The notes under the pieces were generated by a model, which saw nothing but the letters and a program-made list of their open reading frames with translations, was not told the origin of the DNA and made no database searches. DNA of 23,809 bases from a virus, in IMG/VR virus record IMGVR_UViG_3300033571_008891, positions 1-23,809 of that record; one strand, 5' to 3'. Position numbers and translations under genes: made by a program. This document shows positions 1-17,515 of the stretch, one piece after another (position 1 is the first letter of the stretch; each line of letters starts with the position of its first letter).

Positions 1-458
1 CCGTCGTGACTTCTGTGAATTGCACTTTCGGCTGCTGGAATGTCAAAAATATTAACTGCAAATTTTCTCATCTCGTCATCAGGAGGATTGCGTGTTAGAC
101 CGGTAAAGTAACAGTCTATTTCTTTTTCAGCTAATAGTTTACTGCATAAGTCTGCTTGCATTTTGCCAGATATTCTCTGATCTTCTATTAAATGAGTGAA
201 ATGATTTTTAAATTTAATATCAAATTCGTTTTCGATAAAGTTCATTACTTTTTTTGCAACAGCAACTTGATAAGCCTTGCCCTGAACATCTAAACTAATA
301 GCAACCAAAGATATATCAGGTCGTTCTTCTTTTACATACTTACCCAACAAATATCCGATAATTGCACTGTCGCAGCCGCCTGACAATCGAATACCTACAT
401 TTTTAAAATTTGATGGCAAGTTAAATTCTAAATTACCTTGAGATATGTTTATTATCAT
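1..458 (-). CDS. QueC/ExsB-like PP-loop ATPase, third tandem copy (partial, C terminus off the window)
   Basis: I translated this reading frame by hand: it starts with ATG at 458 and stays open to the left edge, giving about 152 residues and lacking the C terminus. It has the PP-loop ATP-pyrophosphatase signature SGGCDSA at residues 26-32, then KEERPD, NEFDIKF and TRNPPDD segments that match the two genes upstream of it. The PP-loop binds ATP and adenylates a carboxyl or carbonyl group in QueC, TilS, GuaA and asparagine synthetase relatives. The start is supported by AAAGGA at 464-469, five bases upstream. The gap to the preceding stop is nine bases, so it belongs to the same transcript. The Cys cluster that would support a QueC-like assignment lies beyond the window. 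This copy has Cys where the other two have Ala after SGG, and it is the most diverged of the three. Substrate unknown. Confidence 0.85.
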   Translation of the reverse strand, partial: MIINISQGNLEFNLPSNFKNVGIRLSGGCDSAIIGYLLGKYVKEERPDISLVAISLDVQGKAYQVAVAKKVMNFIENEFDIKFKNHFTHLIEDQRISGKMQADLCSKLLAEKEIDCYFTGLTRNPPDDEMRKFAVNIFDIPAAESAIHRSHD

Positions 459-467
459 ACTAATCCT

Positions 468-1133
468 TTATTCGTACCTATTAAATCCCCAGTAGCGTTC
501 ATGACACCACCAGCATTCTTCGCAATGTTTACTAAAATCAGTTGTCCATGCTTCGCAGCTTCTTGTTAATGGAAATAATGTATCCATTAGTTCAAACTGT
601 TCGTATAACTCTCTGACTCCTTGTTTATCTATATTAATCAACGGAGTATAACACCACCAACTTAGATCTGTAACGGGCTTATTTTTATCGCCCGGAGTTC
701 TGTTATCTTTAGGTCCAAACTTTTTACTGTCAGGAAAAGACTCTAAAGCAGTCTCTGGTGGATTTTTTGTAACTCCATAATACAACGCATTTATTTCTTT
801 ATTATTAACTATAGCGCCCATGAATTCTTTTTGGTAATTATCAAATTCTTCCACACTTGGGCAAAATCCAATCTTATGATCGCCAAACTTTATATCAAAT
901 TCTTTTTCGATAAATGCAATAACTTTTTTAGAAAATTCTTCTTGATACGCTCTGCCATTAAAATTAATTGTAATAGGAATAATAGTCACTTCAGGACGTT
1001 CTTCTTTAATATACTTTGCTAACATATATGCAACAATAGCACTGTCGGCTCCGCCTGATATTTTAATGCCAACATTTTTTACGCCGGGCCGTAGATATAT
1101 TGATATGTGCTGTTGACTATTTTTTACTAGCAT
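468..1133 (-). CDS. QueC/ExsB-like PP-loop ATPase, second tandem copy
   Basis: The protein has 221 residues, the usual size of QueC. Residues 26-31 are the PP-loop SGGADS, which binds the ATP phosphates in N-type ATP pyrophosphatases. The C terminus carries four cysteines (C193, C204, C207, C210) followed by HERYWGF. This closely resembles the zinc-binding tail of QueC, where Cys-x8/9-Cys-x2-Cys-x2-Cys is followed by an R-x-x-G/A-F pattern. QueC makes preQ0 from 7-carboxy-7-deazaguanine. No other preQ0 gene (FolE, QueD, QueE) is visible, so a preQ0 role is not shown and another carboxylate substrate is possible. The gene lies 19 bases after its close paralogue at 1153-1818 and is probably cotranscribed with it. 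The stretch around the PP-loop is nearly identical to that gene at DNA level, pointing to a recent duplication. Family call fairly sure, function unknown. Confidence 0.85.
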   Translation of the reverse strand: MLVKNSQQHISIYLRPGVKNVGIKISGGADSAIVAYMLAKYIKEERPEVTIIPITINFNGRAYQEEFSKKVIAFIEKEFDIKFGDHKIGFCPSVEEFDNYQKEFMGAIVNNKEINALYYGVTKNPPETALESFPDSKKFGPKDNRTPGDKNKPVTDLSWWCYTPLINIDKQGVRELYEQFELMDTLFPLTRSCEAWTTDFSKHCEECWWCHERYWGFNRYE

Positions 1134-1152
1134 CTTTTATTTATAATTGCTA

Positions 1153-1818
1153 TTATTCATATCTACCAAAACCCCAAAAACGTTCGTGACAATGGAAACA
1201 TTTTACTTTACAATGCTCAGTAAAATCAGTAACGAAATCCTCGCAGCTTCTAGTTAACGGAAATAATCTGTCTAATAGATTAAATTGTTTATACAACTCT
1301 GCTATTTCTTGTTTATCCATATTAATTAAAGGTGCATACCTGCTGGTGCTAATTCTTTGACTTTTTGGTTTAGTGTGATTCCTGTCAGGCAAGCCAGCAT
1401 CGATAACCATTTGAGCAAACGTCATCATGACTTCCATGGGAGGATTATGTGTTAGTCCTATGTATAAGCAATCTATTACGCCATCCTCAAATACTTTATT
1501 AACTAATTTTACCTGTGTATCTGTATAATCGTCTTCGCCTGCTGCCATAGCAGTATACTGCTGTCCGAACTTAATATCAAATTCTTTTTCAATAAAACTT
1601 ATAACTTTATTAGAAAATTCAACTTGGTAATTCTTCAAAGCATGTGAGACTGTTATTGGAATGATAGTTAAATCGGGACGCTCTTCTTTAATATACTTTG
1701 CCAACATATATGCAACTATAGCACTGTCGGCTCCGCCTGAAATCTTTAGTCCGATATTCTTAAAATGCTTGGGCAAATCAAATTCAATAGTTTTTTCATT
1801 AACGCAATTAATAATCAT
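1153..1818 (-). CDS. QueC/ExsB-like PP-loop ATPase, first tandem copy
   Basis: The 221-residue protein has the PP-loop SGGADS at residues 27-32 and a QueC-like C-terminal cysteine cluster at C192, C203, C207 and C210, followed by HERFWGF. The Cys spacing is x10, x3, x2, one residue longer in the second interval than in the copy at 468-1133. The segment LFPLTRSCE just before the cluster is shared with that copy. A THNPP segment in the middle is common to all three paralogues. The family activates a carboxyl or carbonyl with ATP. The start overlaps the stop of the radical SAM gene at 1815-3188 by four bases (ATGA), with AAGGA at 1827-1831 as ribosome site. It is therefore translationally coupled to the radical SAM block, which suggests the two enzyme types work together. 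Substrate unknown. Confidence 0.85.
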   Translation of the reverse strand: MIINCVNEKTIEFDLPKHFKNIGLKISGGADSAIVAYMLAKYIKEERPDLTIIPITVSHALKNYQVEFSNKVISFIEKEFDIKFGQQYTAMAAGEDDYTDTQVKLVNKVFEDGVIDCLYIGLTHNPPMEVMMTFAQMVIDAGLPDRNHTKPKSQRISTSRYAPLINMDKQEIAELYKQFNLLDRLFPLTRSCEDFVTDFTEHCKVKCFHCHERFWGFGRYE

Positions 1819-3188
1819 GGTTCTGTTCCTTTGATTAATTCATATAGTTCAGGAATATAATCTTCTATACTATGCCCGCGAATCTTGTCTAACTTTCTTG
1901 TTGCGTGCCAAAATGCTGGAACGTGTTCACTGAAGTCCTGGGCGTACATATAATCAACATATTGATCCAGTAAAGAAACTACTTCTTTTCTACTACTAGT
2001 TTTACGTTCTTCAGTGAAATTACTTTCATCTATAATCTTTAACAGCTTGGGCTTGTATGCTTCGTACTTTGCTTTAACTGCGTCTTTGGCAAACTTAGGC
2101 AACATACGTACATTATAAAACTTTGGACCATGTAGCGGGTGCGGAGTGATAACAGGACGCCATTCATCATCGTTAATGCGTGGCATCTTGTTAAGCAGTA
2201 TCCATTCCATAAATTCTGGAAAATGTAATACGTTAAACACATTAATAGTTGCAGCGATCCAAACTTTAAAGTTGCCTTCTGCTTGACTTAATTTTAATAA
2301 GTTTTTGTGGATTGTGTTAAAGTCTGCAGGATAACGCATATAATGATTAATGTCACCTACGCCATCGACACTGGCTCCGATGTTAACTTGTTTGAAATGC
2401 TTCCATACTTCCCATGCTCTTGGAGGAATGTTTGTTAAGTTTGTATTGTATTCAACAATCATTTTTTTAGCTTGACCGGCGTCGACACATTTTTGTAAGA
2501 ACTCGTAGTGTCTGTCGATCATCAATGGCTCTCCGCCTACAATGTACAGTTTAGTAATTTGTGGAATGTTAGCGTCCATCTGTTCCCAGTAATGGTCGCT
2601 TTCGTGCCAATTGTATACGTTGACTTCTGGCTCGTATTTGTCTTTGTCGTTTAGAATCAGTTTGACTTTGCCATGGCTGTCTTTATATGTATCGCTCCAC
2701 AGTGCTACTTGGTCATCGTACCATTGACTGCTGTCTGTAGGTCCGCACATGCGACATTTTAAATTACACAAGTTACCAAAACGTAAATCATAGAATGTGC
2801 AGTCAATTGCTTCAGTATCAATAGTTCCGTCTGCTTGTGTCTTAGATAAAAGGTCGTCCCAGTCAAATCTTCCACGCTCGACCCAAATTTCGTTTTCATA
2901 TTCTAAACGGCTACGCATACCTGAATCTGTTTCAGTTTTACATCTAACACACTCGGCGTGCCATTTGCCTTCCATCATGTCTTTTCTGATTTCTTTAGCC
3001 AATGGACTGTTTCTTGCAGCCACTAATTCCGAAGTTTTTGCATTTAGAACTTTACCATTTTCATCTTTTAGGATACCGCCGGTCGGTCCGTGCTGTGCTT
3101 GACAGCAGATACGCATATCGCCATTAGCTCTTAAACTTTGACTCATCCATGGAACTGGACACAGTGTTGCTTTTTTATCTACGCTCAT
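1815..3188 (-). CDS. twitch-domain radical SAM protein
   Basis: The 457-residue protein has the classic radical SAM motif CNLKCRMC at residues 141-148 (C141, C145, C148), which binds the 4Fe-4S cluster that cleaves S-adenosylmethionine. GGEP at 218-221 is the SAM-binding motif and SVDG lies in the second half of the barrel. The N terminus has C10, C28-C29 and C80/C83, an arrangement seen in the N-terminal twitch subfamily, where it is expected to hold an auxiliary iron-sulfur cluster. Radical SAM proteins with auxiliary clusters often modify peptides or proteins, but this subfamily in phages has no proven substrate. The start overlaps the preceding radical SAM gene by four bases (ATGA), with AGGAA at 3196-3200. 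It is the last of three consecutive twitch radical SAM genes and leads directly into the PP-loop trio. Confidence 0.93.
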   Translation of the reverse strand: MSVDKKATLCPVPWMSQSLRANGDMRICCQAQHGPTGGILKDENGKVLNAKTSELVAARNSPLAKEIRKDMMEGKWHAECVRCKTETDSGMRSRLEYENEIWVERGRFDWDDLLSKTQADGTIDTEAIDCTFYDLRFGNLCNLKCRMCGPTDSSQWYDDQVALWSDTYKDSHGKVKLILNDKDKYEPEVNVYNWHESDHYWEQMDANIPQITKLYIVGGEPLMIDRHYEFLQKCVDAGQAKKMIVEYNTNLTNIPPRAWEVWKHFKQVNIGASVDGVGDINHYMRYPADFNTIHKNLLKLSQAEGNFKVWIAATINVFNVLHFPEFMEWILLNKMPRINDDEWRPVITPHPLHGPKFYNVRMLPKFAKDAVKAKYEAYKPKLLKIIDESNFTEERKTSSRKEVVSLLDQYVDYMYAQDFSEHVPAFWHATRKLDKIRGHSIEDYIPELYELIKGTEP

Positions 3189-4510
3189 TTATTTGTTCCT
3201 AAAAATTTTAAATGTGGGAATACTTCCCAATAATCAACATTTCTTAATTCGTTTAGTTTAAGATAATATTCTCTAGCTTTGTCGTTAAGACTTTGATCTT
3301 TAATCTCTTCTGTACGCAACGCAAGGATTAGTCCTTGTACTGCTTTAATTTCTCTTTTCTTGTGCGGACTTTTATTGCACAACCAACTTGTTGCTATAAA
3401 TTCTTGCAACTTTGCAACTTCTTCTAATCGCATCTCTAAAGGAACAAGTTCATGACGAAGCCATTCTTTTCCTCTAACACTGGTAACTCCTAAATGGAAT
3501 CTAGTGTTATTTGTAGTTTCGCAATAATTATCAAAAAACTTCATCAAGTCTGTTATTCCAATGCAATTTAATGTTTGCAAACAGGTCTGAGTAACAGTTT
3601 CCCATTCGCTGTGTAAGTTAGTAGAGTTGTTGATACTGGTGATCACGTGATCCCAATTGGTATGTGGTCGAATTAATTCATCTGCATCCTTGTATGCATC
3701 TATACTAAAACGTAGCAGACCGCCTTTGAATCTATTCAGTAGCTCTATAATTTCGCCGTCTATTAATGTGGCATTTGTACTGATATCTAACGATATATTT
3801 TTAGCATACTCGGTCAGTGAAATTTCTTTCATAAAGTCGATACTGTGACGATCTGCGAATACTTCGCCGCCTCTAAACTCCATGTAAAGAACATTTTTTA
3901 AATTGTCTATAACTTGATCTTTAAAGAATTGGCTTTCACTTAAATATTCTTCGCCAAACGAACGTGCAATATCTAAACTACCTTTCATCTGTTTAGTTAG
4001 GCTCGGCTCCCACTTGGTATATTCTTTATACATCATACTAGACAAGTTTGGGCTACACATAATACAAGACAAGTTACATTTAGTACTTAAACGTATTTCC
4101 CACCATTGAGGCATTACATCTACATAACCATTAGCATCATAATAACTTTGTAACAAGGGCAATACTTTATCTAAGAAACGTTTGTTTTTACCAGTGCGCT
4201 TACTGCCCAATCCACTTTCTTCCATACGATAACAAAAACTACAGTTTGAAATAGTTTCGCCATTCAACATCTTCATACGAAAATCTTTCATGAACTTGCT
4301 GTTCCATAGATCGGCAATACTGTCGTTGAACAAGTTGAAGACTTCTGTATCGTTATTATAAGACTCGTTATTAATTTCGTCTATAGTAATGTGTTTAGGT
4401 ATGCCATTGTCTACGTTGGAAATGCTGCAACATACTCTGGCATCGCCTTTGCCACGAGTATTGAGCTGCACAAAAGGAACTATGCAAAATGTCTTTTGAT
4501 TTAATTGCAT
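3185..4510 (-). CDS. twitch-domain radical SAM protein, GGEV variant
   Basis: The 441-residue protein has the radical SAM cluster motif CNLSCIMC at residues 145-152. The N-terminal twitch-type cysteines are C9, C27-C28, C90 and C93. The usual GGEP motif appears here as RGGEVFADRH, with Val in place of Pro. Its neighbours keep GGEP, so the SAM pocket or substrate position may differ slightly. The middle and C-terminal parts are diverged from the flanking paralogues: this copy lacks the NWH segment and the PPHL-like stretch they share. Start ATG at 4510 has AAAGGA at 4518-4523, seven bases away, placed inside the end of the preceding gene. The stop overlaps the next start as ATGA. It probably acts with the adjacent radical SAM proteins. 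Family call secure, target unknown. Confidence 0.92.
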   Translation of the reverse strand: MQLNQKTFCIVPFVQLNTRGKGDARVCCSISNVDNGIPKHITIDEINNESYNNDTEVFNLFNDSIADLWNSKFMKDFRMKMLNGETISNCSFCYRMEESGLGSKRTGKNKRFLDKVLPLLQSYYDANGYVDVMPQWWEIRLSTKCNLSCIMCSPNLSSMMYKEYTKWEPSLTKQMKGSLDIARSFGEEYLSESQFFKDQVIDNLKNVLYMEFRGGEVFADRHSIDFMKEISLTEYAKNISLDISTNATLIDGEIIELLNRFKGGLLRFSIDAYKDADELIRPHTNWDHVITSINNSTNLHSEWETVTQTCLQTLNCIGITDLMKFFDNYCETTNNTRFHLGVTSVRGKEWLRHELVPLEMRLEEVAKLQEFIATSWLCNKSPHKKREIKAVQGLILALRTEEIKDQSLNDKAREYYLKLNELRNVDYWEVFPHLKFLGTNK

Positions 4511-4511
4511 A

Positions 4512-5912
4512 TTATAATCCTTTAAATATATCTTTCATTTCAGGAAAAGTTTTGTAGAAATCTGTACCGCGTTGCTTATCTAGTAGCTCTATATATTCTT
4601 TCATCTCGGGCAAGCGCACACTCCAGTCCTCGCTCTTGGCAAAATTAACCATGCCGCGAAGTCTACTGATGCCATAGTCTGCATTTAGCCACTGCTCTTC
4701 GGTAACCTTACCTTGATGCCACTTTGGCACACCTTTTTGCCAGTTTGCTTTCCACCAAGGAATAAACTCCTCGTACTTCTGCTCAATCTCATCCTTGAAC
4801 CATGCGGGTAATATCTTAACGTTGAGATGCGGCGGATGGTATACAAAGTGATAGTTAATACCGCCTGCTCCAAATGGCCACATATTGACTTTCTTAAAGC
4901 CATGTTCCAGCTTCCACTTTAGGAACTCAGGAATATAATAAATGTTTAACGCCTGCACTGCACAAGCAATAGTTACTTCTACATTGTCGCCTGTTTCTTC
5001 ATCTAGCTGTCTGAATGCTTCTAAATTTCTTTCCCACTTACTAGGATAACGAATATAATCATTTCGATCACCGACGGCATCAACACTATAATGATAACGA
5101 ACTAATTTAAAATGACTCCAAAGTTCAAATAGGTCTTCTCGCCATTCTACACCATTACTGTTGTAACGTATTTCCATGTCCTTTGCATAGCCACGCTTAA
5201 TACATTCTTCTAGAATCATGTAATGTTCTTCGATGATCAGCGGCTCGCCACCTGCAAAATAGAGCTGTTTCATGTTGGGGATCTGTTCCCATAGCTGTGT
5301 CCAAAACTCAGGATTATTCTTGTGCCAGTTGTAGCTAGCACCATTCTCTTGTCCTTTGTTGCCCCACTGCATACTATCTTTAAGTACAGGATTCTGTACT
5401 TCTGGATACATCTTCTGCCACTCAGGAATCCACAAACTGCTGTCATGCGGACTACACATTACGCAGGCCAAATTACATTTAGTACCAAAGCGCATGTCAA
5501 TATAAGCAATATGCGGAGGAACTGATCCATCTTCTTCAGTATCCGCTAACAGTTTGTCCAAGTCCACTCGTTGTTTCCAATAAGCAGTTTCCCACTGTCT
5601 TTTACTCTTATGTCCTTCACGTTCTTCTTTGTAGCATTTGGTGCAGCTGGCAGGTTCTTCGCCTGCTAACATTTTAAGTCTAGTGTTCTTCATGTAGTCG
5701 TTATTCCAACTACTGAGAAAATCTGTATGGTTCAAGTTTGCAGGTTTGCCGTCAGCATTTTTGAGAATGCCTACTTCGCCCCCGTGCACTTTGTCGTTGG
5801 TAGGGCCTACACTACTGGCGTTGGCAGTGCAGCATACTCTCATATGTCCATTAGGTCTAGTGCTAAGATGTACCCATGGTAGGATACAGAATGTTTTGCT
5901 TGGTTCTGCCAT
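4512..5912 (-). CDS. twitch-domain radical SAM protein
   Basis: The 466-residue protein starts with FCILPWVHLSTRPNG, the typical opening of N-terminal twitch radical SAM proteins, with C9, C27-C28 and C90/C93 as probable auxiliary-cluster ligands. The core motif CNLACVMC lies at residues 146-153, and AGGEPLIIEEHY supplies the SAM-binding GGEP. SVDAVGDRNDYIRYP closely parallels SVDGVGDINHYMRYP in the gene at 1815-3188, so the two are clear paralogues. The C terminus has the LRGMVNF and PEMKEYIELLDKQRGTDF pattern seen in the relative at 20100-21500. No clear Shine-Dalgarno site precedes the ATG: the 22-base gap to the preceding gene is only AT-rich. It is the first of the three-gene radical SAM run. 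Radical chemistry on a peptide, sugar or nucleotide is possible; the sequence does not decide. Confidence 0.93.
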   Translation of the reverse strand: MAEPSKTFCILPWVHLSTRPNGHMRVCCTANASSVGPTNDKVHGGEVGILKNADGKPANLNHTDFLSSWNNDYMKNTRLKMLAGEEPASCTKCYKEEREGHKSKRQWETAYWKQRVDLDKLLADTEEDGSVPPHIAYIDMRFGTKCNLACVMCSPHDSSLWIPEWQKMYPEVQNPVLKDSMQWGNKGQENGASYNWHKNNPEFWTQLWEQIPNMKQLYFAGGEPLIIEEHYMILEECIKRGYAKDMEIRYNSNGVEWREDLFELWSHFKLVRYHYSVDAVGDRNDYIRYPSKWERNLEAFRQLDEETGDNVEVTIACAVQALNIYYIPEFLKWKLEHGFKKVNMWPFGAGGINYHFVYHPPHLNVKILPAWFKDEIEQKYEEFIPWWKANWQKGVPKWHQGKVTEEQWLNADYGISRLRGMVNFAKSEDWSVRLPEMKEYIELLDKQRGTDFYKTFPEMKDIFKGL

Positions 5913-5934
5913 AATATTATTTAATTTTTAATGC

Positions 5935-7107
5935 CTATTTAAATTGTTCGCTAAATGCATCGTATTTAGCTCCGCACGTCTTGGCACATACAGCCAGCTT
6001 TCCTTCTGCACAGCTAGGTTTAGACCAGCTGTCAGGTATTACTTCCTGTATAAATTTACCATTGATTACATCCATAATGTTGTGTACACGAAGATCTAAA
6101 GAATCTAAACCTGCTAGGTCAATAGCGTCCCATATTTGTCCGCCACGCTGTTTCCAATACCATACATACATTTGCCCAGCAGTCCAGCAACAGGGCTGTA
6201 AGTATCCTTCTGCCGTGATGTAAATGCTTTTTTCTTCCGAGACTTTACATTTAACTTCTACCGTATCCCAGTATTTTTCCATATCCTTTTTCTTCTCAGG
6301 ATCTAGATTAAACTTTTGAGCGCCTATTTTACCTTCTAGTTCTGCTACAGTTGAAATAAAATCAATTTTAACTTCACCTTTGTCTTTGCTTAGACTTTCT
6401 AATTGTTTTAGAGCGGCATTTTGATATTCAGGATTCTTGGGCATACTCAACAATGTTGTTTCTGACCCTTTTCTATTACCAGCTTGATGCTCTGCCTTAA
6501 CTGAGCCGCGTGTATTGCTAAAGAATCTATTTGACTTCTTGACGTTGAACTTTTCAAAGCCCATCTTTTCAGCTAATGCTCTAGCTTCTTCTACTTGATG
6601 TTCGTTGTGCCCAAATACAATATAATCCCAACGTGCTCGACCACCTGCCTGAATAAAAGCTTCTGCGTTTTCCATTATCTTTTTCCACACAGTACCCTGC
6701 CTGTACAAATGATTAGTATCTTCTAGGCCGTCTACGCTGAATACCACATAATGACTCTTTCCCATAGCCGCTGGTAATCGACTCCACCATTCAGGAGTCT
6801 TGGCGCTGGCATTTGTGTGAAAGCTAAGTTGCATAGTAGCATTGTTACTACGAATGTATTCGAATATTTCTAATGTATCCTTGGCACTAATAGGATCGCC
6901 ATAATTGCCGCACATGTACAAACGTTTTAATTGTTTAATGAAGTCAGGCTTTAGAATTGTTTTTACATCATCTAGCGTGAGTTCAGCATCATGTAATTGC
7001 GGATTTACTTCGCCGCCATTGATATTGCGAGCACATTGAGGGCAACTAGCATTACAACGTTCAGTAACTTCTAAATGCACTGTTGTAATTTCATGGGCTT
7101 TATACAC
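5935..7107 (-). CDS. SPASM-type radical SAM protein
   Basis: This 390-residue protein belongs to a different radical SAM branch from its neighbours. The cluster motif CNASCPQC is close to the N terminus (C18, C22, C25), with no N-terminal twitch domain. GNYGDP at residues 67-72 replaces the GGEP motif, and SVDG is at 124-127. The C-terminal part has C287, C306-C307, C366, C374 and C378, with the order expected for a SPASM or half-SPASM domain binding auxiliary 4Fe-4S clusters. SPASM enzymes include peptide-maturating enzymes such as AlbA and the sulfatase-maturating anSME. The start is GTG at 7107, chosen because AAGGAG at 7115-7120 sits seven bases upstream and HLEVTERC follows at the normal distance for this family. 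The start overlaps the end of the preceding gene by eight bases. Target unknown. Confidence 0.92.
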   Translation of the reverse strand: MYKAHEITTVHLEVTERCNASCPQCARNINGGEVNPQLHDAELTLDDVKTILKPDFIKQLKRLYMCGNYGDPISAKDTLEIFEYIRSNNATMQLSFHTNASAKTPEWWSRLPAAMGKSHYVVFSVDGLEDTNHLYRQGTVWKKIMENAEAFIQAGGRARWDYIVFGHNEHQVEEARALAEKMGFEKFNVKKSNRFFSNTRGSVKAEHQAGNRKGSETTLLSMPKNPEYQNAALKQLESLSKDKGEVKIDFISTVAELEGKIGAQKFNLDPEKKKDMEKYWDTVEVKCKVSEEKSIYITAEGYLQPCCWTAGQMYVWYWKQRGGQIWDAIDLAGLDSLDLRVHNIMDVINGKFIQEVIPDSWSKPSCAEGKLAVCAKTCGAKYDAFSEQFK

Positions 7108-7774
7108 CTATCCACTCCTTGAATTGCTGTTCTAACCAAACAAAGTTATTAACTAAAGTAAAATCAGCATTGCTAGATTGTGCGTAAGCAACACCCTGTC
7201 TAGCACCTTGTATGGCAAAGTAACCATATTGTGTTTCATTACCAGCTTCGCACCACATTGTCAAACGTTCTTTGGTTTCGGTATCGTTATTGTTTTTATT
7301 GATACCGGCACTAAGTTTAACTGCTTCACGGAATGCTGTTCGCCATGTAGCATAAGCACTATAATTAAATCTATGTTCGCTGGCTAGTATATTTAACTTA
7401 ATATAATGGTCGGCAAGAGTTGTAGTCATATCGGGTCTGTCTAGACGTTCTGCACTAAAGCAATCTTTGCTGAATAGTTTGATGCCGCCGTGTCCATATA
7501 CTAATCCGTTAATTGGGTTCTTTGCTCTAAACACTGCTACGCTTTTTGGTTTTAATTCAATTTGCTTATCAAAGTTAAAACTATCAACTATCCAGCAATC
7601 GGCATCTACTACATAGAACCTATCCGATTCGCACAAACTTGCAATATGTTTATGACTTTCGAATATTGTGCCTACTGCTTTTATTGCGTGACAATTAGTT
7701 GCGCGATCATTTAATCTTTTCCAATTTTCTGACCAGTTTGCTTCGTCATTATATAAAAAATAGATAGGTATCAT
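7100..7774 (-). CDS. glycosyltransferase-like protein (GT-A type), third tandem copy
   Basis: With the ATG at 7774 the protein has 224 residues. It opens with IPIYFLYNDE and carries VVDADC at residues 55-60, a DxD-like motif typical of GT-A glycosyltransferases that bind a nucleotide sugar through a metal. Further shared motifs are NPINGLVYGHGGIKLF, TWRTAFREAVKLS and FAIQGARQG, also found in the two genes upstream of it. I chose ATG 7774 over the in-frame TTG at 7801 because it begins one base after the preceding stop, has TAGG nearby, and aligns with the paralogues. The longer form would add nine residues inside the preceding gene. This is the shortest, domain-only version of the trio. The glycosyltransferase role comes from the DxD context and fold-like pattern, not from a recognised named family, and donor and acceptor are unknown. 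Confidence 0.75.
   Translation of the reverse strand: MIPIYFLYNDEANWSENWKRLNDRATNCHAIKAVGTIFESHKHIASLCESDRFYVVDADCWIVDSFNFDKQIELKPKSVAVFRAKNPINGLVYGHGGIKLFSKDCFSAERLDRPDMTTTLADHYIKLNILASEHRFNYSAYATWRTAFREAVKLSAGINKNNNDTETKERLTMWCEAGNETQYGYFAIQGARQGVAYAQSSNADFTLVNNFVWLEQQFKEWIGV
7115..7120 (-). promoter_or_regulatory. Ribosome binding site deciding a GTG start
   Basis: AAGGAG lies seven bases before the GTG at 7107. It is a near-perfect Shine-Dalgarno match and supports GTG initiation of the SPASM radical SAM gene. Confidence 0.75.
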
Positions 7775-7775
7775 A

Positions 7776-8771
7776 TTAATACCTAGGTAATGTAAAACCA
7801 AACAATGGTAATGCGCTGTGATTTAGCACAGACGGCCAGCCAAAGTTCTTTGGGGGATTAATATTAACATGCTTAAACCATAGACTTTGTTTAGCATCTA
7901 ATTCAACTAATGGTAAGTTTAATTTTTCAACTAATGCTTGCATAACTCTGTTACTGTCTTCTTCAGGACTAGTAGAATTTTCTTCAATATCTTTCCAGTA
8001 CTCATTGAACCAATCATAATCTGATATTAAACTTTGATCAAAGTTGTTAACATATAGATTATAAGCACCTAAACGTGCACCATAAATTGCCCAGTCTCCA
8101 TTTGCTACATCACGACCAACAGTCATCCAAGTTAGCCAACGTGCATAGTTACCCGGATACATTTTATGATTAAAGTCTTCTACTTTAACTTTATGTCCTT
8201 GATCAAGACCCATTTTAACACCTTCGCGGAAGCCTGCTCTAAATGCTTGTTTAGCACTGGCATTGTTCATAACAGTGCCATAAGTGTTATTCATTTGCTT
8301 ATAGTTCTTAAAGTCCCAGCAAAAGTCTACATTATTATTGTCGTCATTTTTATCTGCGGCTTCATGAGTACGCATAGCTTTTACATATGGAGCATACCAC
8401 AATTTAATACCGCCATTACCATAGACTAATCCATTGACAATATTTCTGCTACTCCAACTAAATGTTGAGGTTAAGTCAGCTTTGTCTATATCTAAATTTT
8501 GCTTCCATATAGCAGGATCTACTCGACAATCTGCATCGATAGTAAAGAATCTATCATTAACTGCAAATTCTGCACAGGCTTTATGTGCAGCATCAAAGCC
8601 TTTAACTCCGTGTACACGTTTAACTAATTCCGGTGTAGGATGATTTGCTCTAAGCAATTCAAAGTTCTCATCGGCGTTAGGTTCGTCGAAACTAAGAAAT
8701 ACTGCCGGTATTTCTTTTAGTTTTAAAGTAGTATTAGTATTGTTAATGTTTATAGAATTTATCAAACTCAT
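7776..8771 (-). CDS. glycosyltransferase-like protein (GT-A type), second tandem copy
   Basis: The 331-residue protein has the same core as its two neighbours: IPAVFLSFDEPNADEN at residues 21-36, VHGVKGFDAAHKA, FFTIDADC with the DxD at 79-81, NGLVYGNGGIKLW, and AFRAGFREGVKMG. The core is extended by an insertion rich in Asp and Asn after GGIKLW and by a C-terminal tail of about 70 residues ending in HSALPLFGFTLPRY. The DxD suggests metal-dependent nucleotide-sugar binding. The ATG at 8771 lies 29 bases inside the preceding gene and has only a weak GGATG site, so translational coupling is likely. No other in-frame ATG is available before the conserved core. It may glycosylate a virion protein or take part in glycan assembly (inference). 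Family assignment is moderate because this is mainly known as a conserved phage family. Confidence 0.75.
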   Translation of the reverse strand: MSLINSININNTNTTLKLKEIPAVFLSFDEPNADENFELLRANHPTPELVKRVHGVKGFDAAHKACAEFAVNDRFFTIDADCRVDPAIWKQNLDIDKADLTSTFSWSSRNIVNGLVYGNGGIKLWYAPYVKAMRTHEAADKNDDNNNVDFCWDFKNYKQMNNTYGTVMNNASAKQAFRAGFREGVKMGLDQGHKVKVEDFNHKMYPGNYARWLTWMTVGRDVANGDWAIYGARLGAYNLYVNNFDQSLISDYDWFNEYWKDIEENSTSPEEDSNRVMQALVEKLNLPLVELDAKQSLWFKHVNINPPKNFGWPSVLNHSALPLFGFTLPRY

Positions 8772-10317
8772 TTTTCATCCATTCATAGTTGTTAATCAAT
8801 TTCAATGCTTCCAATTTATTGAAATTATCTTTTCCGTATTGTTTACCTAATGCTGCACCATGCAAGGCATATTCGCCATATAGTCTGTCACTACCCACTG
8901 TAGTCCAAATTCGTAATCGTTCTTCTGTATCTGCTGGCGTAGTTGTTCCTTGATATAAGCTAGAACTTAACTTGGCGCATTCTCTAAAAGCACTGCGCCA
9001 TGTACCAAATGGATCAGAATTAAAACTTGTAATATTGCTGACTTTGTTGATATATTTCAGTTTGCCTAGACCCGTAGTTAAATCTACTCGCCATGTTTGT
9101 GCATCTAATAATAGTTGACGTGGGAATAATTTTATACCACCCCAGCCGTATTCTAAATCATTAATAGGATTAATACTAGTCCATAAATGTACGCAGTCCA
9201 TGTCAAAAACATTTGGCTTAAAATCAAATTTCCAATTATCAACAAGTTCGGCGTCACCGTCTACAACATAAAACATTTCTGTGGTAGCAATTTCAGCGGC
9301 ACGTTTGTGTGCTTCGAAAATACCTTTAACATTCTTAACACGTTTGGCATTAGGAAATATTTCTAACAATCTATACCAATTAGCTTCGGCATTAGGTTCT
9401 TTATAGCTGATAAAAACTACATCAAAGTCTTTAGATACTACACCAATATTGCCTACAATTTTAGTACCAAGGCTTTCTTTGTTAGGAACAATTTTAGCCG
9501 CCCAAATTTGCTCGTTGTCTGTGTGCAAACTATTATCCAGCATCCACACATGTTCGTAGCCTAAGTCATAATAAGGAATGTTGTCGTTGATGTAATAATC
9601 TAAATGACTAGGAACATCGGGATTAAATATAAACTTAGGGCTAGCATAGCCCATTTCAAGATATCCTGGATTTTCCCTCTTAGATAAACTCTTTATTGCC
9701 CATATCTCATCGTCAGTGGGATTAAACTTAGGATCTAAATACCATACTAAATCGTCTTTTAAATTGTAATATGGAATGTTATCGTCATAGACTAGATCCA
9801 CATCAGGAATGTCTGAATTAATAATTATATCTAATTTAGGACTAACATAGCCACGATCTTTAATACCTTGTATAGGTTGATCTTTAATCTTACATTTAGC
9901 TACCCAAATCTTATCATCAGTAGGATTATATTTTTTATCTAAGTAATAGATGTGTTCATAATAGATATCCTCGATGGTAATATTAAAGTCGATGTTGTAA
10001 TCTACAAAATCAACTTCAGGATTAATTGTTATTTCTTTTTCTAATTCTAATCGACAATCGACAAAATCCCAGCCCTTACTAACATTCCAGTCAGATTTAA
10101 ACTTTTTAACTAGCCATAAGTTATCTATTGACCATACGATGCATTTATTACTGTTAACCGAATCAACATCAATGTAATCTAGGATCCATTCGTATCCAGG
10201 ATTTACAATTACGAATTCGTTGTAGATGGATCCTAGAGCATGTAATCGCTGATCAAATGTATCTGGATCTTCTTCCCATGTAACTTTTTCTACTAAACTT
10301 TTATCTATTTTAATCAT
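8743..10317 (-). CDS. repeat-bearing glycosyltransferase-like protein, first tandem copy
   Basis: The 524-residue protein has two parts. Residues 298-524 match the glycosyltransferase-like core of the two following genes: DVVFISYKEPNAEANW, VVDGDAEL with the DxD at 353-355, NPINDLEYGWGGIKLF, TWRSAFRECAKLS and YALHGAALGKQYG. Residues 1-297 form an extension with repeated units of about 67 residues. Three clear copies begin near 120, 187 and 254, each containing a tract like LDPKFNPTDDEIWA followed by GYVSPK- or GYASPK-like text; a weaker fourth unit may lie before residue 110. The repeats are Asp, Tyr and Trp rich and could be a binding or spacer module (inference). The start overlaps the carbamoyltransferase stop as ATGA; no Shine-Dalgarno site is obvious. 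Donor and acceptor are unknown. Confidence 0.78.
   Translation of the reverse strand: MIKIDKSLVEKVTWEEDPDTFDQRLHALGSIYNEFVIVNPGYEWILDYIDVDSVNSNKCIVWSIDNLWLVKKFKSDWNVSKGWDFVDCRLELEKEITINPEVDFVDYNIDFNITIEDIYYEHIYYLDKKYNPTDDKIWVAKCKIKDQPIQGIKDRGYVSPKLDIIINSDIPDVDLVYDDNIPYYNLKDDLVWYLDPKFNPTDDEIWAIKSLSKRENPGYLEMGYASPKFIFNPDVPSHLDYYINDNIPYYDLGYEHVWMLDNSLHTDNEQIWAAKIVPNKESLGTKIVGNIGVVSKDFDVVFISYKEPNAEANWYRLLEIFPNAKRVKNVKGIFEAHKRAAEIATTEMFYVVDGDAELVDNWKFDFKPNVFDMDCVHLWTSINPINDLEYGWGGIKLFPRQLLLDAQTWRVDLTTGLGKLKYINKVSNITSFNSDPFGTWRSAFRECAKLSSSLYQGTTTPADTEERLRIWTTVGSDRLYGEYALHGAALGKQYGKDNFNKLEALKLINNYEWMKNEFDKFYKH
9520..9979 (-). repeat. Coding tandem repeats, about 67 codons per unit
   Basis: The N-terminal part of the gene at 8743-10317 contains at least three imperfect repeats about 200 bases apart. 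They encode LDKKYNPTDDKIWVAK, LDPKFNPTDDEIWAIK and the more decayed LDNSLHTDNEQIWAAK. Boundaries are approximate. The unit structure is visible at protein level and partly at DNA level. Confidence 0.75.
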
Positions 10318-11786
10318 GTTATTACAGGAACATTATACTTAGTATAAAATGCTTGTGCATCTGCTATATTATTAACCATTGGTTGACCTTTGATATTCAA
10401 GCTGGTGTTTAGTAACATAGGACAACCAGTAAGGCTGTGCCAATCTTCAAGTAGTTTTCTAAAACCAGGACTATCATTCTTGCTAACAGTTTGTACACGA
10501 CTTGTTCCGTCTTTGTGTATTATAGCAGGAAACTGGTCAGGTTGTCTACACTTTGCTACAAATTGCATGAAAGGACTAGCTGTTATGTTCGCTGGCATTT
10601 CAAAGTATTCGTGAACATATTCTTCTAGGATTGCGGGGGCAAAGGGTCTGAACTGTTGTCTTCGTTTGATTGCGTTGACTGTGTCTTTGATATCTGGGCC
10701 CCTTGGATCTCCCAGTAAACTGCGATGGCCCAAAGCTCTAGGTCCAAATTCTGCTCGACCTGATGCCACACCCACGATTTTATCTGTTTTAAGTATGCTA
10801 ATAGTTTCATCAACTGGATACTCCTTGCCCATGTTTGTACCAAGATATGCGCCAGGCCACTTAACTTGTTCACCAAAGAAAGCAGCAACTGCTCCAACAC
10901 TACTGCCAGCATCTCCTGGGTTTGGCATTATCCAAACATTGTTCCAGTCGCCGGTGATTTCGCTGTTGGCCACACAGTTAAGAGCACAGCCGCCCATTAG
11001 TACAATATTCTTACTGGGAAGATTTTCTCTTGCCCATCGACTGATACCTTGTAGTATTTCAGTATACACTTGTTGTGTTGCGGCTGCAATATCAAATGTG
11101 TCTTGTTCTTTTAATAAGTCCAAGCGCCAATCAGGACAGCCACGATGCAAATTACGTTTGAACTTAACTTCTGGACCATTAATCACACTGAAGAAATCTT
11201 CGTATATAGCTGCTTTGTATTTGTTTGGATCACCGTAAGCAGCCATGCCCATTAGAATATATTCTTCTTCATTGGGCTTTAATCCAATACGCTGTGTCAT
11301 CGAACTAAACCAAAGTCCTACACTGTCAGGATAGCTTTGTGTATAAACTTTTTTTAAGTCATTGCCTTGGCCTTGCCAAATTGTTAAAGTTTCAAATTCA
11401 CCGATACTATCGATAACTACAACTGTAGCGTCTGCAAAGCCACTAGTATAATAGCCAGCTGCTGCATGGCTCTTATGATGTTCACCTATGACTAATGGCT
11501 GCGTTAGATTATATTTGGCAAGATATGATTTAACATCATTCTCTTTAGTTCTATCTCCCTGTCCTGCTGTATATTGTCTAGCAGTTTTTAAGTCAGGATT
11601 TTCATACCAGACGATTATATCCGGCTTTCCGTATTGTTCTGCGTCTTGGATAATGCCAGGGCACAAGTCTCCGTCATTTTTAATGCCAGAATATCTTTCA
11701 CTGTGTGCTGCAAATTGTAATTGTTTATCATGCCAAACGCTGATGGCAGCATCATGACTGTTGGCACTAATTCCCCAAATGTTCAT
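10314..11786 (-). CDS. NodU/CmcH/TobZ-family carbamoyltransferase
   Basis: The 490-residue protein transfers a carbamoyl group from carbamoyl phosphate, through a carbamoyl-adenylate, to a hydroxyl of a sugar or natural product. The N-terminal Kae1-like domain starts with IWGISANSHDAAISVW and has HHKSHAAAGYY at residues 103-113; H103 and H107 fit the HxxxH metal site known from TobZ. An Asp in VVVIDSIGEFE follows. MGGCALNCVANSEI and GDAGSSVGAVAA are typical nucleotide-binding stretches. The C-terminal domain has GRAEFGPRALGHRSLLGDPR and NTSLNIKGQPMV, strong signatures of this family. Usual length is about 550-600, so this is a compact version, but all main motifs are present. The start overlaps the preceding gene by ATGA. 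With a nucleotidyltransferase and glycosyltransferase-like genes nearby, carbamoylation of a sugar is the likeliest role. Confidence 0.93.
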   Translation of the reverse strand: MNIWGISANSHDAAISVWHDKQLQFAAHSERYSGIKNDGDLCPGIIQDAEQYGKPDIIVWYENPDLKTARQYTAGQGDRTKENDVKSYLAKYNLTQPLVIGEHHKSHAAAGYYTSGFADATVVVIDSIGEFETLTIWQGQGNDLKKVYTQSYPDSVGLWFSSMTQRIGLKPNEEEYILMGMAAYGDPNKYKAAIYEDFFSVINGPEVKFKRNLHRGCPDWRLDLLKEQDTFDIAAATQQVYTEILQGISRWARENLPSKNIVLMGGCALNCVANSEITGDWNNVWIMPNPGDAGSSVGAVAAFFGEQVKWPGAYLGTNMGKEYPVDETISILKTDKIVGVASGRAEFGPRALGHRSLLGDPRGPDIKDTVNAIKRRQQFRPFAPAILEEYVHEYFEMPANITASPFMQFVAKCRQPDQFPAIIHKDGTSRVQTVSKNDSPGFRKLLEDWHSLTGCPMLLNTSLNIKGQPMVNNIADAQAFYTKYNVPVIT

Positions 11787-12850
11787 CGGTATATAAATGG
11801 GTCTCGTTTGCGTAGTTCTTCTAAGCGTTTTTTTAATTTAATCTGAAATTGTACTTCTGGATGTTCATGATCAAATGTTTTATAATGATCCAACAGTGTT
11901 GTAATCTTTATTTCTAAGTCTGATTTAAATTTGTTGTAGTCTATGCTTGCAATAATGTCTCGGTATTCTTCGCTGTTAAAACAGTAATGTCCACTGACAC
12001 TGACTGCAATGTCTTTATCAGTTACTCCTGGTTCTACCCAACGTTGCCAAAAGTTCAAGCCATAGACAAAGTCGGCAAATCTAGCCCACAAGTCAGCAGG
12101 AGCAAACTCTTTTAACAAGTCTGTTTGTATTTTACCCAACTGTGGCGCAATATTTAAACTGTCGACACCTGCGTCAATCCGTTGTTGAATATCTTCTGCG
12201 GTAAAATAATCAGCATTGTGTTCTTTAAACAAGAAGCCCTTTGCTCTAATTTGCTCGCCTATTACACGATTTCGTTCTACGTCAAAACTGCCAACTTGGC
12301 CGTCTTTGGTTAAACTGCCCGTTTGTGTTACAAAAAACTTAACATTATTTTTGTAAGGATTTAAAAATTCTAATTGAGTATCAATTCTACCTAAACTGCC
12401 GTTAATATCAATACCAGTATTGTCTTCGCTGCCAAATTCTAATATGATATCGGGATTCAAACTTATTGCATATTCAATCAACTGTTTTGCATAATGCAAT
12501 TGATTGTCTTTAATTCTACTTACATCAATATGAATTAAATCAAATCCAGCGGCAATGTCCGCGGCAATAGTTTTCATACAACGATCGATTGCATCTTCTA
12601 CACTTAGACCTCTATCTAAATCAGTAAAGTAAGGTCCACAATGGTCTCTGCACAGTAGTAAATTTGGATTTTTATATTGTTTTACTTGTTCTGCTAATTC
12701 AGTTGTAGTACAAACATAGCCTGTGACGTAGTCGACTTGATTGCGGCTGGCAATAATCATCAGAGGATAACTATTATCTTTTGTGTGTTTGGCAAGTATT
12801 TCTATAATTTCCTTGCTCATTGGGCCAAAGCCCAATTTAAATTGTTTCAT
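11783..12850 (-). CDS. GatZ/KbaZ-like TIM-barrel protein (tagatose-bisphosphate aldolase subunit family)
   Basis: The 355-residue protein resembles GatZ/KbaZ, the so-called non-catalytic subunit of class II tagatose-1,6-bisphosphate aldolase, normally about 420 residues. Visible parallels are IASRNQVDYVTGY (family: ATSNQVNQFGGYTG), LLCRDHCGPY (family: GGDHLGP), HIDVSR (family: HLDCS) and the Glu in ILEFGSEDNTG (family: a GTE stretch). NIAPQLGKIQTD further on fits a barrel strand and phosphate site. The family folds as a TIM barrel and has been linked to sugar-phosphate aldol chemistry or support of GatY. No GatY partner is in the window, so the protein may act alone on another keto-sugar phosphate. 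The start lies 14 bases inside the preceding AroE-like gene, suggesting coupled translation. The family call rests on motif resemblance and is moderate. Confidence 0.6.
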   Translation of the reverse strand: MKQFKLGFGPMSKEIIEILAKHTKDNSYPLMIIASRNQVDYVTGYVCTTTELAEQVKQYKNPNLLLCRDHCGPYFTDLDRGLSVEDAIDRCMKTIAADIAAGFDLIHIDVSRIKDNQLHYAKQLIEYAISLNPDIILEFGSEDNTGIDINGSLGRIDTQLEFLNPYKNNVKFFVTQTGSLTKDGQVGSFDVERNRVIGEQIRAKGFLFKEHNADYFTAEDIQQRIDAGVDSLNIAPQLGKIQTDLLKEFAPADLWARFADFVYGLNFWQRWVEPGVTDKDIAVSVSGHYCFNSEEYRDIIASIDYNKFKSDLEIKITTLLDHYKTFDHEHPEVQFQIKLKKRLEELRKRDPFIYR

Positions 12851-13577
12851 ATTGTCTGCTTTCGATTTCGTCGTAGAGTTCTTCGCTAGGTTTTATTCCA
12901 GTATAAATCTCAAATTGTTTTAAGAATTGACTGCGATAAAACTCACGCCCTGATACATATTTAATATTATAATTCTGGCATTGTCGTTTAAATTCGTTAT
13001 TTTTAATAGCTAAATCTATTACCAACCTTGTATTAGGAGGTATTTGTCCTAATTTATATGGACTTTCTTCTGTACTTGTTCCCAGTGCTGTGCAATTAAT
13101 TACAATGTCTGCGGGCTTATACCGTTCATTCCATGTATTCAAATTCCTAGCACAAATATTTAAGTTTCCATAATATTCTTCTTCTAGATATTTAACAACC
13201 ATACTGCCTATTGCTCCGGCACCCAAAATAGTTATTTTATCTGTTTTATCGATATACTTGCAAATGTGTTCGACGCCTGCTAGATCGGCATTATATCCGT
13301 GAGTTTGATTTTTGTTTATCTTAATAGTATTACAACTATTATAGAGTTCTACATAAGGATGTTTTTTATCTAAATATGATATAGTAGACTTTTTAAATGG
13401 CATGCTAACACTGATTCCACTAACTCCGTCTTGGATTGCTTGCATTATTGCTTTTTCAATGTCTGTACAGGCCATGGGCTCGTAAGTTGCATCTATCCCA
13501 TAATGTTTAAAAAACTCTGTATAAAAGTATTGCCCTGTCTTTCCAGGATATTTACTTAAACTTATATATCTTTTCAT
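12837..13577 (-). CDS. shikimate/quinate dehydrogenase-like oxidoreductase (AroE family)
   Basis: The 246-residue protein has the AroE layout. GISVSMPFKK at residues 54-63 corresponds to the family G-x-N-V-T-x-P-x-K segment, with K62 as the likely catalytic lysine. NSCNTIKI and GYNADLAG follow, with D98 as the paired catalytic aspartate (family GxNTDxxG). The nucleotide-binding loop ILGAGAIGS is at 117-125, and INCTALGTS and GREFYRSQFLKQFEIYTG complete the C-terminal signature. AroE proteins reduce 3-dehydroshikimate or similar cyclic ketones with NADPH. The N-terminal SxS substrate motif is altered here to SLSKYPGKTG and the protein is shorter than the usual 270-290, so the substrate may not be shikimate. 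A role in making a cyclic sugar-like unit with its GatZ-like and carbamoyltransferase neighbours is inference. The start overlaps the preceding stop as ATGA. Confidence 0.85.
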   Translation of the reverse strand: MKRYISLSKYPGKTGQYFYTEFFKHYGIDATYEPMACTDIEKAIMQAIQDGVSGISVSMPFKKSTISYLDKKHPYVELYNSCNTIKINKNQTHGYNADLAGVEHICKYIDKTDKITILGAGAIGSMVVKYLEEEYYGNLNICARNLNTWNERYKPADIVINCTALGTSTEESPYKLGQIPPNTRLVIDLAIKNNEFKRQCQNYNIKYVSGREFYRSQFLKQFEIYTGIKPSEELYDEIESRQYETI

Positions 13578-13912
13578 TGTTTGTACGCTCTTATTTCTTT
13601 TATTTTATTGTCTTGATCAAATTCCAATACATCTACGATAGAAGCTACTATTTTGTTATTAATTATAATTGTTAGTTCCGCCATAACTGTATCCATACCA
13701 ACTGCTACTCTATCTACGTCAATTCTAATAGTATCTACACTATTAAAAAATCGTTGATTAAAATTAAGAACATTTTGTTTTCCAACAATTTGAACATCCC
13801 AATCAGTTAATAAAATACTGTCACTGAACAATACTTCTAAACTAGCTGTGTCTTTTTTACAGAAGCTTTGAAAATACATTAATGCAATTTGACTTTGTGT
13901 TGGATTACTCAT
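13574..13912 (-). CDS. SnoaL/NTF2-like small protein
   Basis: The 112-residue protein has the NTF2/SnoaL pattern: an N-terminal helix (QIALMYFQSFCKKDTASLEV), LFSDSILLTDW as the first strand region, a second helix FNQRFF, then alternating strands ending in VDVLEFDQDNKIKEIRAYK. The VLEFD-x-x-x-KIKEIRAY ending is very common in this superfamily. Members are cone-shaped alpha+beta barrels that act as isomerases, cyclases, hydrolases or just binding proteins, and function cannot be read from the fold. The start has AGGAG at 13920-13924, seven bases before ATG. Its stop overlaps the AroE-like start as ATGA, so it is likely made together with that enzyme and may act on the same small molecule. Confidence 0.85.
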   Translation of the reverse strand: MSNPTQSQIALMYFQSFCKKDTASLEVLFSDSILLTDWDVQIVGKQNVLNFNQRFFNSVDTIRIDVDRVAVGMDTVMAELTIIINNKIVASIVDVLEFDQDNKIKEIRAYKQ

Positions 13913-13915
13913 TGT

Positions 13916-14752
13916 CTAACTCCTATAATTGTTTTTAAAATATTCATTAAAAAATAGTTCGCTGATTTTTTCATGCATAGTAGGCCCAGGATGTGTACTG
14001 TCTCTTGCAAAGTCAATATCATATTTCAAATCAGGATATTTGATATACTCGAAGTCGGGGAAGTTTTGTTGAATAATATTAACTTCATATTCTGTATCGA
14101 TTCCCGGAAAATCCCACATAGAATATATTACTTTGGCATTTAAACTTTTTGATATAGAATCTATCAATGCTAAATTTTTAATCGACTGATATTTAATAAA
14201 CTCTATGTCTATAAACAATTCATCTACTACTTTGCTATCAGCTGATAATCCCGGGGACTCCGGATGAAACCATGTTTTTATATCTTTGGTATTATAACAG
14301 TATTCTCTCCTGGAAAAAGGAGGAAATAATATTACAATATAGTCTAAATGTTTTTTAAATTTTGTAGAATACCAATAGAGGCCATTGGCAATAGAATCTA
14401 ATCCTGCTCCTGCTAATGCAAGATTATAATGAGGAATAGTTTTACCTGTTTTAGCTTTTAACCTACTTAATAAACGATTTGTCCACATTTTATTTGCCGG
14501 TAATCCGATGCCTTCTGTATAGCTACAGCCAGTAAACAAAATAGAAACATCTGAATCTATATCAAAGTCGTCGCTTCTAAATCCATAATTATTAAATTTA
14601 TATCTAATTTCATCGCAATCTTTGGGATATATGTTTGGACCTTTACTATTAACTTCTAAATAATTACGTTCTAAATCATAGGCATGCCAAGACAATTCTG
14701 TATTAGCTCTATTTGAAATTATACTATTGTAATAAGAATCTTTATTAAACAT
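13916..14752 (-). CDS. SGNH/GDSL-type hydrolase
   Basis: The 278-residue protein carries ILFTGCSYTEGIG, equivalent to the GDSL block I, with S77 as the probable nucleophile (Cys replaces Asp in the GDS position). LALAGAGLDS supplies the block II glycine, and the C-terminal RDSTHPGPTMHEKI gives the D251/H254 dyad in the DxxHPG form. SGNH enzymes hydrolyse or transfer acyl groups, often acetyl on polysaccharides. No signal peptide is visible, so action in the cytoplasm or in the virion is likelier than secretion. The start lies eight bases inside the nucleotidyltransferase-kinase gene. Two further SGNH genes lie upstream in the same transcript but are too diverged to look like recent copies. 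The substrate could be an acylated sugar intermediate or the host envelope. Confidence 0.85.
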   Translation of the reverse strand: MFNKDSYYNSIISNRANTELSWHAYDLERNYLEVNSKGPNIYPKDCDEIRYKFNNYGFRSDDFDIDSDVSILFTGCSYTEGIGLPANKMWTNRLLSRLKAKTGKTIPHYNLALAGAGLDSIANGLYWYSTKFKKHLDYIVILFPPFSRREYCYNTKDIKTWFHPESPGLSADSKVVDELFIDIEFIKYQSIKNLALIDSISKSLNAKVIYSMWDFPGIDTEYEVNIIQQNFPDFEYIKYPDLKYDIDFARDSTHPGPTMHEKISELFFNEYFKNNYRS

Positions 14753-17513: not shown

Positions 17514-17515
17514 GT

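Follow-up and report, generated by a model that had tools for sequence, protein, structure and literature searches.

Here we report that a compact block of radical S-adenosylmethionine (SAM) and PP-loop genes, located at positions 1-7107 (minus strand) of the IMG/VR virus record IMGVR_UViG_3300033571_008891, belongs to a gene neighbourhood conserved among T4-like phages, and that its two types of enzymes very likely constitute one functional module. The 23,809-base stretch analysed here, referred to below as the window, is the whole linear record, itself a fragment, and encodes 24 tightly packed genes, all on the minus strand and thus transcribed from right to left. Judged by its gene content, the cluster lies in a setting that corresponds to the host recognition cluster of T4-like marine phages. 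Its enzymes probably synthesise or decorate a surface sugar or protein of an unusual type, and we give an even chance to the more specific reading that it is a virus-specific glycoconjugate-tailoring pathway within the host-recognition island of these phages, with a glycan or glycoconjugate as the substrate.

An earlier note on this DNA, made from the sequence alone, had described the block as three twitch and one SPASM-type radical SAM gene running into a PP-loop trio. All seven genes are present: radical SAM gene A, which is SPASM-like; radical SAM genes B, C, and D, which are of the N-terminal-twitch type; and three tandem genes for QueC-fold PP-loop enzymes (PP1, PP2, and PP3), separated in the order from A to PP3 by 22, 1, -4, -4, 19, and 9 bases. 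Radical SAM A (5935-7107, 390 amino acids, GTG start) matches PF04055 (E 5e-10), and its C-x13-G-x4-C motif and Cys-rich C-terminus resemble SPASM. With a score of 51 bits and an alignment starting only at model position 109, A falls below the curated cut-off (170 bits) of the NF033640 family (N_Twi_rSAM), which is passed over the full model by B (4512-5912, 466 amino acids, 434 bits), C (3185-4510, 441 amino acids, 271 bits), and D (1815-3188, 457 amino acids, 377 bits). B is the most constant member of the block, and C and D are present in some lineages only. PP1 (1153-1818) and its tandem paralogue PP2 (468-1133), of 221 amino acids each, score 26.3 and 32.8 bits, respectively, with the QueC model PF06508 (gathering score 22 bits), these matches covering their C-terminal part only; PP1 has an SGGADS loop and a four-cysteine set. 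The tally of four radical SAM and three PP-loop genes holds for positions 1-7107, but PP3 (3-458, 152 amino acids visible) is cut by the contig end, which leaves its 3' end open, and a fifth twitch radical SAM, E (20100-21500, 466 amino acids), lies outside the block. E also passes the NF033640 cut-off over the full model (336 bits); it is present in two of 37 viral contigs and is 86% identical to the copies in G002 and G003, two related contigs. The CX3CX2C motif is intact in all five radical SAM proteins of the window, predicting radical SAM catalysis. The gene calls are mechanical, and E-values of the models built in this analysis apply to small sets.

The block is not particular to this record. 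Among the 37 viral contigs, orthologues of A, B, C, and D were found in 27, 35, 25, and 29 contigs, respectively, and the order A-B-C-D is invariant, with other radical SAM genes sometimes interposed. Scans with the individual genes recovered at least 574 relatives of B in IMG/VR, and viral relatives of D and C on 36 and 27 contigs, respectively. The co-occurrence across metagenomic phages, which the earlier note had asked to be counted, was obtained by scanning for PP-loop genes without regard to radical SAM content: of the 16 loci recovered, 15 have a radical SAM gene at most 200 bases away; the set includes near-duplicates and represents about eleven independent loci. The 179.6-kb contig G004 has 21 NF033640 matches among 269 called genes, so that a random gene would touch one in about 15% of cases; the maximum per contig is 22 matches, in G010. 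One viral cluster contig, L216 (NZHE01000012.1), had been binned into a Rickettsiales metagenome-assembled genome (MAG), and its proteins are 100% identical to those of G005 (2823573081_000015). Compared with their G002 orthologues, C and D show ratios of nonsynonymous to synonymous substitution rates (dN/dS) of 0.011 and 0.015, respectively, the proportions of nonsynonymous (pN) and synonymous (pS) differences being 0.02-0.03 and 0.63-0.74. These values show strong purifying selection on both genes, and the gene block is far beyond chance.

The two chemistries also meet within single proteins. A radical SAM domain is fused to a PP-loop domain in proteins encoded in G012 (53194-55692, 832 amino acids; also L106:3394-5892), in G011 (17355-19847, 830 amino acids; also L103, minus strand), and, as a partial protein, at L142:18130-20217. 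In all three, the PP-loop domain is C-terminal to the radical SAM domain. Pfam confirms the radical SAM half, and with the family model of this analysis the PP-loop half reaches about 180 bits in either complete protein and 80 bits in the partial one, the SGGADS loop and the cysteines being visible. The fusions are the strongest evidence that both chemistries serve one pathway. Together with the fixed gene order and the adjacency in PP-loop loci, they bear out the conserved neighbourhood across related phages on which the earlier note had staked its proposal.

To what extent the remaining genes belong to the module was read from the best 80 loci per scan, tallies that are thereby biased to close relatives; moreover, most contigs are fragments, and the absence of a gene from a contig carries little weight. 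In the B scan, the best 80 loci contain another radical SAM gene in 80 cases, A in 72, a glycosyltransferase-like gene of a family that we call GT0 in 72, a PP-loop gene in 42, a small gene named SMALL74 in 41, D in six, and C in two. Because of these counts we define the wide core of the cluster as GT0-A-B; PP-loop genes are common, and C and D mark certain lineages. The earlier note had missed the GT0 genes, whose constancy equals that of the radical SAM genes, as well as the cellular relatives of the twitch enzymes in surface-glycan loci. GT0 is a family that Pfam does not match, and the window encodes three paralogues of it, at 7100-7801, at 7776-8771, and, as a long form, at 8743-10317. 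The AF2 model of the 7100-7801 protein (pLDDT 90) has GT-A fold matches, with Foldseek E-values down to 5e-5 and a VIA Z of about 11 to GT-A enzymes and likewise to nucleotidyltransferases. The GT0 proteins are therefore predicted to have a GT-A fold with an Asp-rich motif, and since this fold also resembles nucleotidyltransferases, we treat them as putative glycosyltransferases.

Cellular twitch radical SAM proteins are rare and located in glycan loci. NF033640 matches over the cut-off occur in three of 398 Pseudomonadota genomes, one of these matches being on a viral contig. In G096, four NF033640 genes are flanked by WbsX, TylF, and methyltransferase genes on one side and by a Wzm permease gene with rfbD and rfbC on the other; one of the four (L229:8579-11143, minus strand) encodes Wzt, the ATPase of the O-antigen ABC exporter including its carbohydrate-binding domain (ABC_tran and Wzt_C), fused to a twitch radical SAM and adjoins the three others. 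The single NF033640 gene of G131 adjoins glycosyltransferase-like genes, and in G447 an FkbM methyltransferase is fused to a twitch radical SAM (L235:8238-10487) beside GT2 and ABC exporter genes. These loci favour, short of proof, a glycan or glycoconjugate as the substrate, and it is the constancy of GT0 together with these cellular relatives in surface-glycan loci that leads us to the glycoconjugate reading.

The substrate, the individual reactions, and the biological purpose that we infer for the cluster would be as follows. Sugar-nucleotide enzymes encoded in the island would supply the GT0 proteins, which would attach sugars to an acceptor. Radical SAM enzymes A and B, with C, D, and others depending on lineage, would remove hydrogen atoms from the glycan or glycoconjugate as it grows, leading to dehydrogenation, epimerisation, deoxygenation, or cross-linking. 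The PP-loop enzymes may activate a carboxylate, such as that of a uronic acid, by adenylation, and this group would become an amide or be joined to an amine; they may act directly with a radical SAM partner; the QueC-family N-sugar amidotransferase WbpG provides a precedent for such ligase chemistry (PMC13329287). SMALL74 could assist one subfamily of the radical SAM enzymes as a non-catalytic partner. The product would coat or cap the virion adhesion apparatus or the infected-cell surface, thereby altering recognition or excluding rival phages. We also put forward, tentatively and at somewhat less than an even chance, a bolder proposal: that paralogous twitch radical SAM enzymes, up to about 20 in number and some of them fused to QueC-fold ligases, successively rewrite a phage-made glycoconjugate into a diversified coat of the virion or infected cell, and that this system is found only in viruses, a phage radical-chemistry counterpart of O-antigen diversification without a cellular original.

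Several observations weigh against a glycan or glycoconjugate as the substrate. Most SPASM enzymes that have been studied act on peptides, and radical SAM A resembles this type. PP-loop genes are absent from about half of the best 80 B loci, hence they are not essential to the core. GT0 matches the GT-A fold in a generic way, with SunS peptide S-glycosyltransferases and polypeptide GalNAc-transferases as the top Foldseek rows. The cellular context comes from three loci examined in all, and the one in G447 also contains PqqD and HPr-kinase-like genes, which recall peptide modification.

The main rival, which we regard as rather unlikely, is peptide or protein modification, in which the radical SAM, PP-loop, and GT0 enzymes act on a ribosomal target, either SMALL74 as precursor or carrier or the tail-fibre proteins, the tail genes being just upstream of the cluster. 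The QueC-family proteins Cap9, to which the PP-loop proteins have a weak match (E 0.007), and QatC act on protein N-termini (PMC13279940, PMC13329287). SMALL74 is absent from the window, which stops within the cluster; it is 73-79 residues long, has 392 relatives in the viral collection (for example, L046:5072-5296, plus strand), and is the sole small conserved gene of the cluster. Its best 80 loci contain GT0 in 80 and a radical SAM gene in 78 cases, and it is usually located directly after the last GT0 gene and ahead of the radical SAM genes. In G002, it forms the C-terminus of a radical SAM protein (L007:17770-19011). Against its role as a precursor, SMALL74 is conserved over its full length and predicted to fold into three helices (pLDDT 83), rather than consisting of a leader and a variable core: the model columns R8, E13, R16, F31, N32, H37, S39, W42, Y43, Y50, G55, P58, S59, and P63 are invariant in 73 distinct sequences. 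Nearly all of these sequences begin with MD or ME, without an N-terminal glycine motif, and thus lack the glycine after Met of QatB. Furthermore, SMALL74 is absent from about half of the best 80 B loci and was not found in G004 and G010, and the cluster has no constant cleavage or export gene.

Other assignments of SMALL74 were considered and rejected. The possibility of a PqqD-like RRE was dismissed, as SMALL74 has no Pfam, PHROG, PDB, or BFVD match, its structural model matching nothing in PDB and BFVD and no RRE by Foldseek. Sequence matches to PDB entries (helical designed proteins and antibody chains) were taken as artefacts. A bacterial origin was likewise rejected, since the three loci found in the cellular collection of 84,980 genomes are all on viral-type contigs binned into MAGs. 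Another candidate substrate for the radical SAM enzymes, a Gly/Tyr-rich tract in a tail-like protein upstream of the cluster (G002 26171-27220, L020), occurs in one contig only.

Biosynthesis of a small molecule or cofactor used in the infected cell, similar to that of pyrroloquinoline quinone (PQQ) or mycofactocin, is improbable. The large number of radical SAM genes would suit such a pathway, as would the 2-oxoglutarate-oxygenase-like, SDR-like, and nitroreductase-like genes that accompany the core, but its most constant partner is GT0, and SMALL74 is neither PqqA-like nor PqqD-like by sequence or Foldseek. Still less probable is the possibility that unrelated auxiliary genes of separate pathways were gathered in an island known to be hypervariable (PMC7029224): the number of radical SAM genes and the presence of PP-loop genes, C, and D do vary, but the invariant order of A-D, the strong purifying selection, and the fusions largely refute it.

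The PP-loop proteins belong to the QueC superfamily, although they are unlikely to be QueC. An SGG-x-S loop and four cysteines are invariant across 22 viral members. PP1 is 80% identical to its G002 copy and about 51% identical to PP2, and PP3 is 91% identical to a complete G002 copy of 227 amino acids; G002 has two PP-loop copies, none of which corresponds to PP2. The trio is a tandem paralogue set. Aligned to E. coli QueC, the PP-loop proteins retain the loop, one lysine, and the cysteines, and contain none of the YxQxHxxE, VPxRN, and YPDC motifs. These are the substrate motifs of canonical QueC (PMC13329287). Modification of nucleobases in phage DNA or host tRNA via 7-deazaguanine, with the PP-loop enzymes as QueC, can hardly be right: it would account for the PF06508 and PHROG QueC-like matches, and G004 has a QueE-like reading frame (51169-52065) and a QueD match (109539-109952) far from the cluster, but besides the absence of the canonical motifs, the proteins score 24-27 bits against the QueC equivalog cut-off of 150, QueD exceeds its cut-off in one of 12 contigs (most of these fragments), G004 itself has no PP-loop gene in its cluster, and several PP-loop copies per cluster are unlike QueC. 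QueC activity of the trio was therefore rejected; adenylation of a carboxylate can fairly be predicted from these sequences, and synthesis of 7-cyano-7-deazaguanine cannot. The earlier note had combined radical chemistry with ATP-dependent carboxyl activation. This logic stands, because QueC-fold ligases activate carboxylates in an ATP-dependent manner, and the adjacency, order, and fusions assign both to one conserved module; what the motifs make unlikely is canonical QueC chemistry.

The nearest solved structure for the zinc region is Cap9, whose first zinc cysteine motif, SCE, is also that of the PP-loop proteins. A role as a defence system was considered and rejected, PADLOC returning weak QueC and viperin matches only; no CD-NTase, QatB, or defence genes were recognised among the annotated cluster genes, although no search aimed at them was made. 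In the 398 Pseudomonadota genomes, the PP-loop family has a single weak partial match. A PP-loop relative with 45% identity, L037:10001-10627, lies outside any radical SAM cluster and adjoins a SufB-like reading frame.

Beyond the GT0 genes, the island in the window encodes a NodU-type carbamoyltransferase (10314-11786; PF16861 182 bits, PF02543 129 bits), a sugar-1-phosphate nucleotidyltransferase-like and kinase-like protein (14745-16289; PF12804 and PF01636 weak, NF041313 57 bits), a cupin, and aldolase-like and AroE-like proteins. Consecutive genes for a KbaZ/GatZ-like aldolase, an AroE-like dehydrogenase, and a SnoaL-like protein occupy 11783-13912 and are conserved in G002 and G003. Two paralogous genes at 18429-20118, without Pfam match, are syntenic in the same two contigs (84-85% identity). 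The 533-residue protein encoded at 22062-23663 has an unusual combination of a BamB/PQQ-type beta-propeller in its C-terminal part and an N-terminal part that looks phosphoribosyltransferase-like by eye. In G002, a baseplate wedge subunit gene (12829-16290) is followed by tail-like genes and then by the cluster. The host recognition cluster of pelagimyophages is a hypervariable island with glycosyltransferases, in which radical SAM cassettes have been noted (PMC7029224). The phages carrying the cluster are probably marine and freshwater relatives of T4, the habitat being assigned from published context and cultured relatives.

Comparison with known systems places the module among several partial counterparts. 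Cap9 and QatC share with the PP-loop proteins the SGGxDS loop and zinc cysteines, and Cap9 also the SCE motif; in contrast, the YxDC motif of Cap9 is not conserved here, and our proteins are encoded in a phage-borne cluster with radical SAM genes. The WbpG-type N-sugar amidotransferases (PF06508 cluster 5) are likewise QueC-family ligases in a surface-glycan pathway; however, the CxxC(x)6CxC motif reported for them is unlike the C-terminal Cys4 of our proteins, which is of the QueC type. The O-antigen export locus L229 resembles the phage cluster in its tandem NF033640 proteins with glycosyltransferase and methyltransferase genes, but it is chromosomal and has no GT0, PP-loop, or SMALL74 match.

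Radical-SAM-rich T4-like phages have been known since 2010 (PMC2853527) and 2020 (PMC7029224). The Campylobacter phages CP220 and CPt10, with 11-12 radical SAM genes (PMC2853527), are similar to the phages described here in being T4-like and in having tandem radical SAM genes that adjoin nucleotide-sugar-transferase-like genes and the baseplate region. They differ in that their radical SAM proteins align from model position about 127, without the N-terminal twitch, and in that they also encode an amidinotransferase; the examined stretch of CP220/CPt10 has no match to GT0, PP-loop, or SMALL74. Pelagibacter phage Mosig and other pelagimyophages are T4-like marine phages with glycosyltransferases, radical SAM genes, and an island beside baseplate and tail-fibre genes. 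Mosig encodes radical SAM proteins, one carbamoyltransferase, and, by profile search, one distant GT0 relative, but within the 40 kb examined its radical SAM genes are few, and PP-loop and SMALL74 matches are missing. Radical SAM cassettes are only mentioned in PMC7029224, which describes neither an ordered A-B-C-D module nor a QueC-like partner. A literature search that excluded most subscription journals and preprints revealed no description of the ordered module, the QueC-like partners, the fusions, or SMALL74, and among 50,697 phage records we found no close isolate by DNA match and no tblastn match to the PP-loop, GT0, or SMALL74 proteins.

In these viruses of aquatic bacteria, a single island occupies tens of kilobases and holds as many as 22 radical SAM genes per contig. 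If the product is a radical-tailored glycan or protein adduct, it would represent viral surface chemistry of a new class, linked to host recognition; a function would be assigned to the NF033640 family, and a branch that is neither QueC nor defence would be added to the QueC superfamily. The question can be put to the test in culture, as related genes occur in Vibrio phage K566, which has four of the twitch radical SAM type, and in Pelagibacter phage Mosig.

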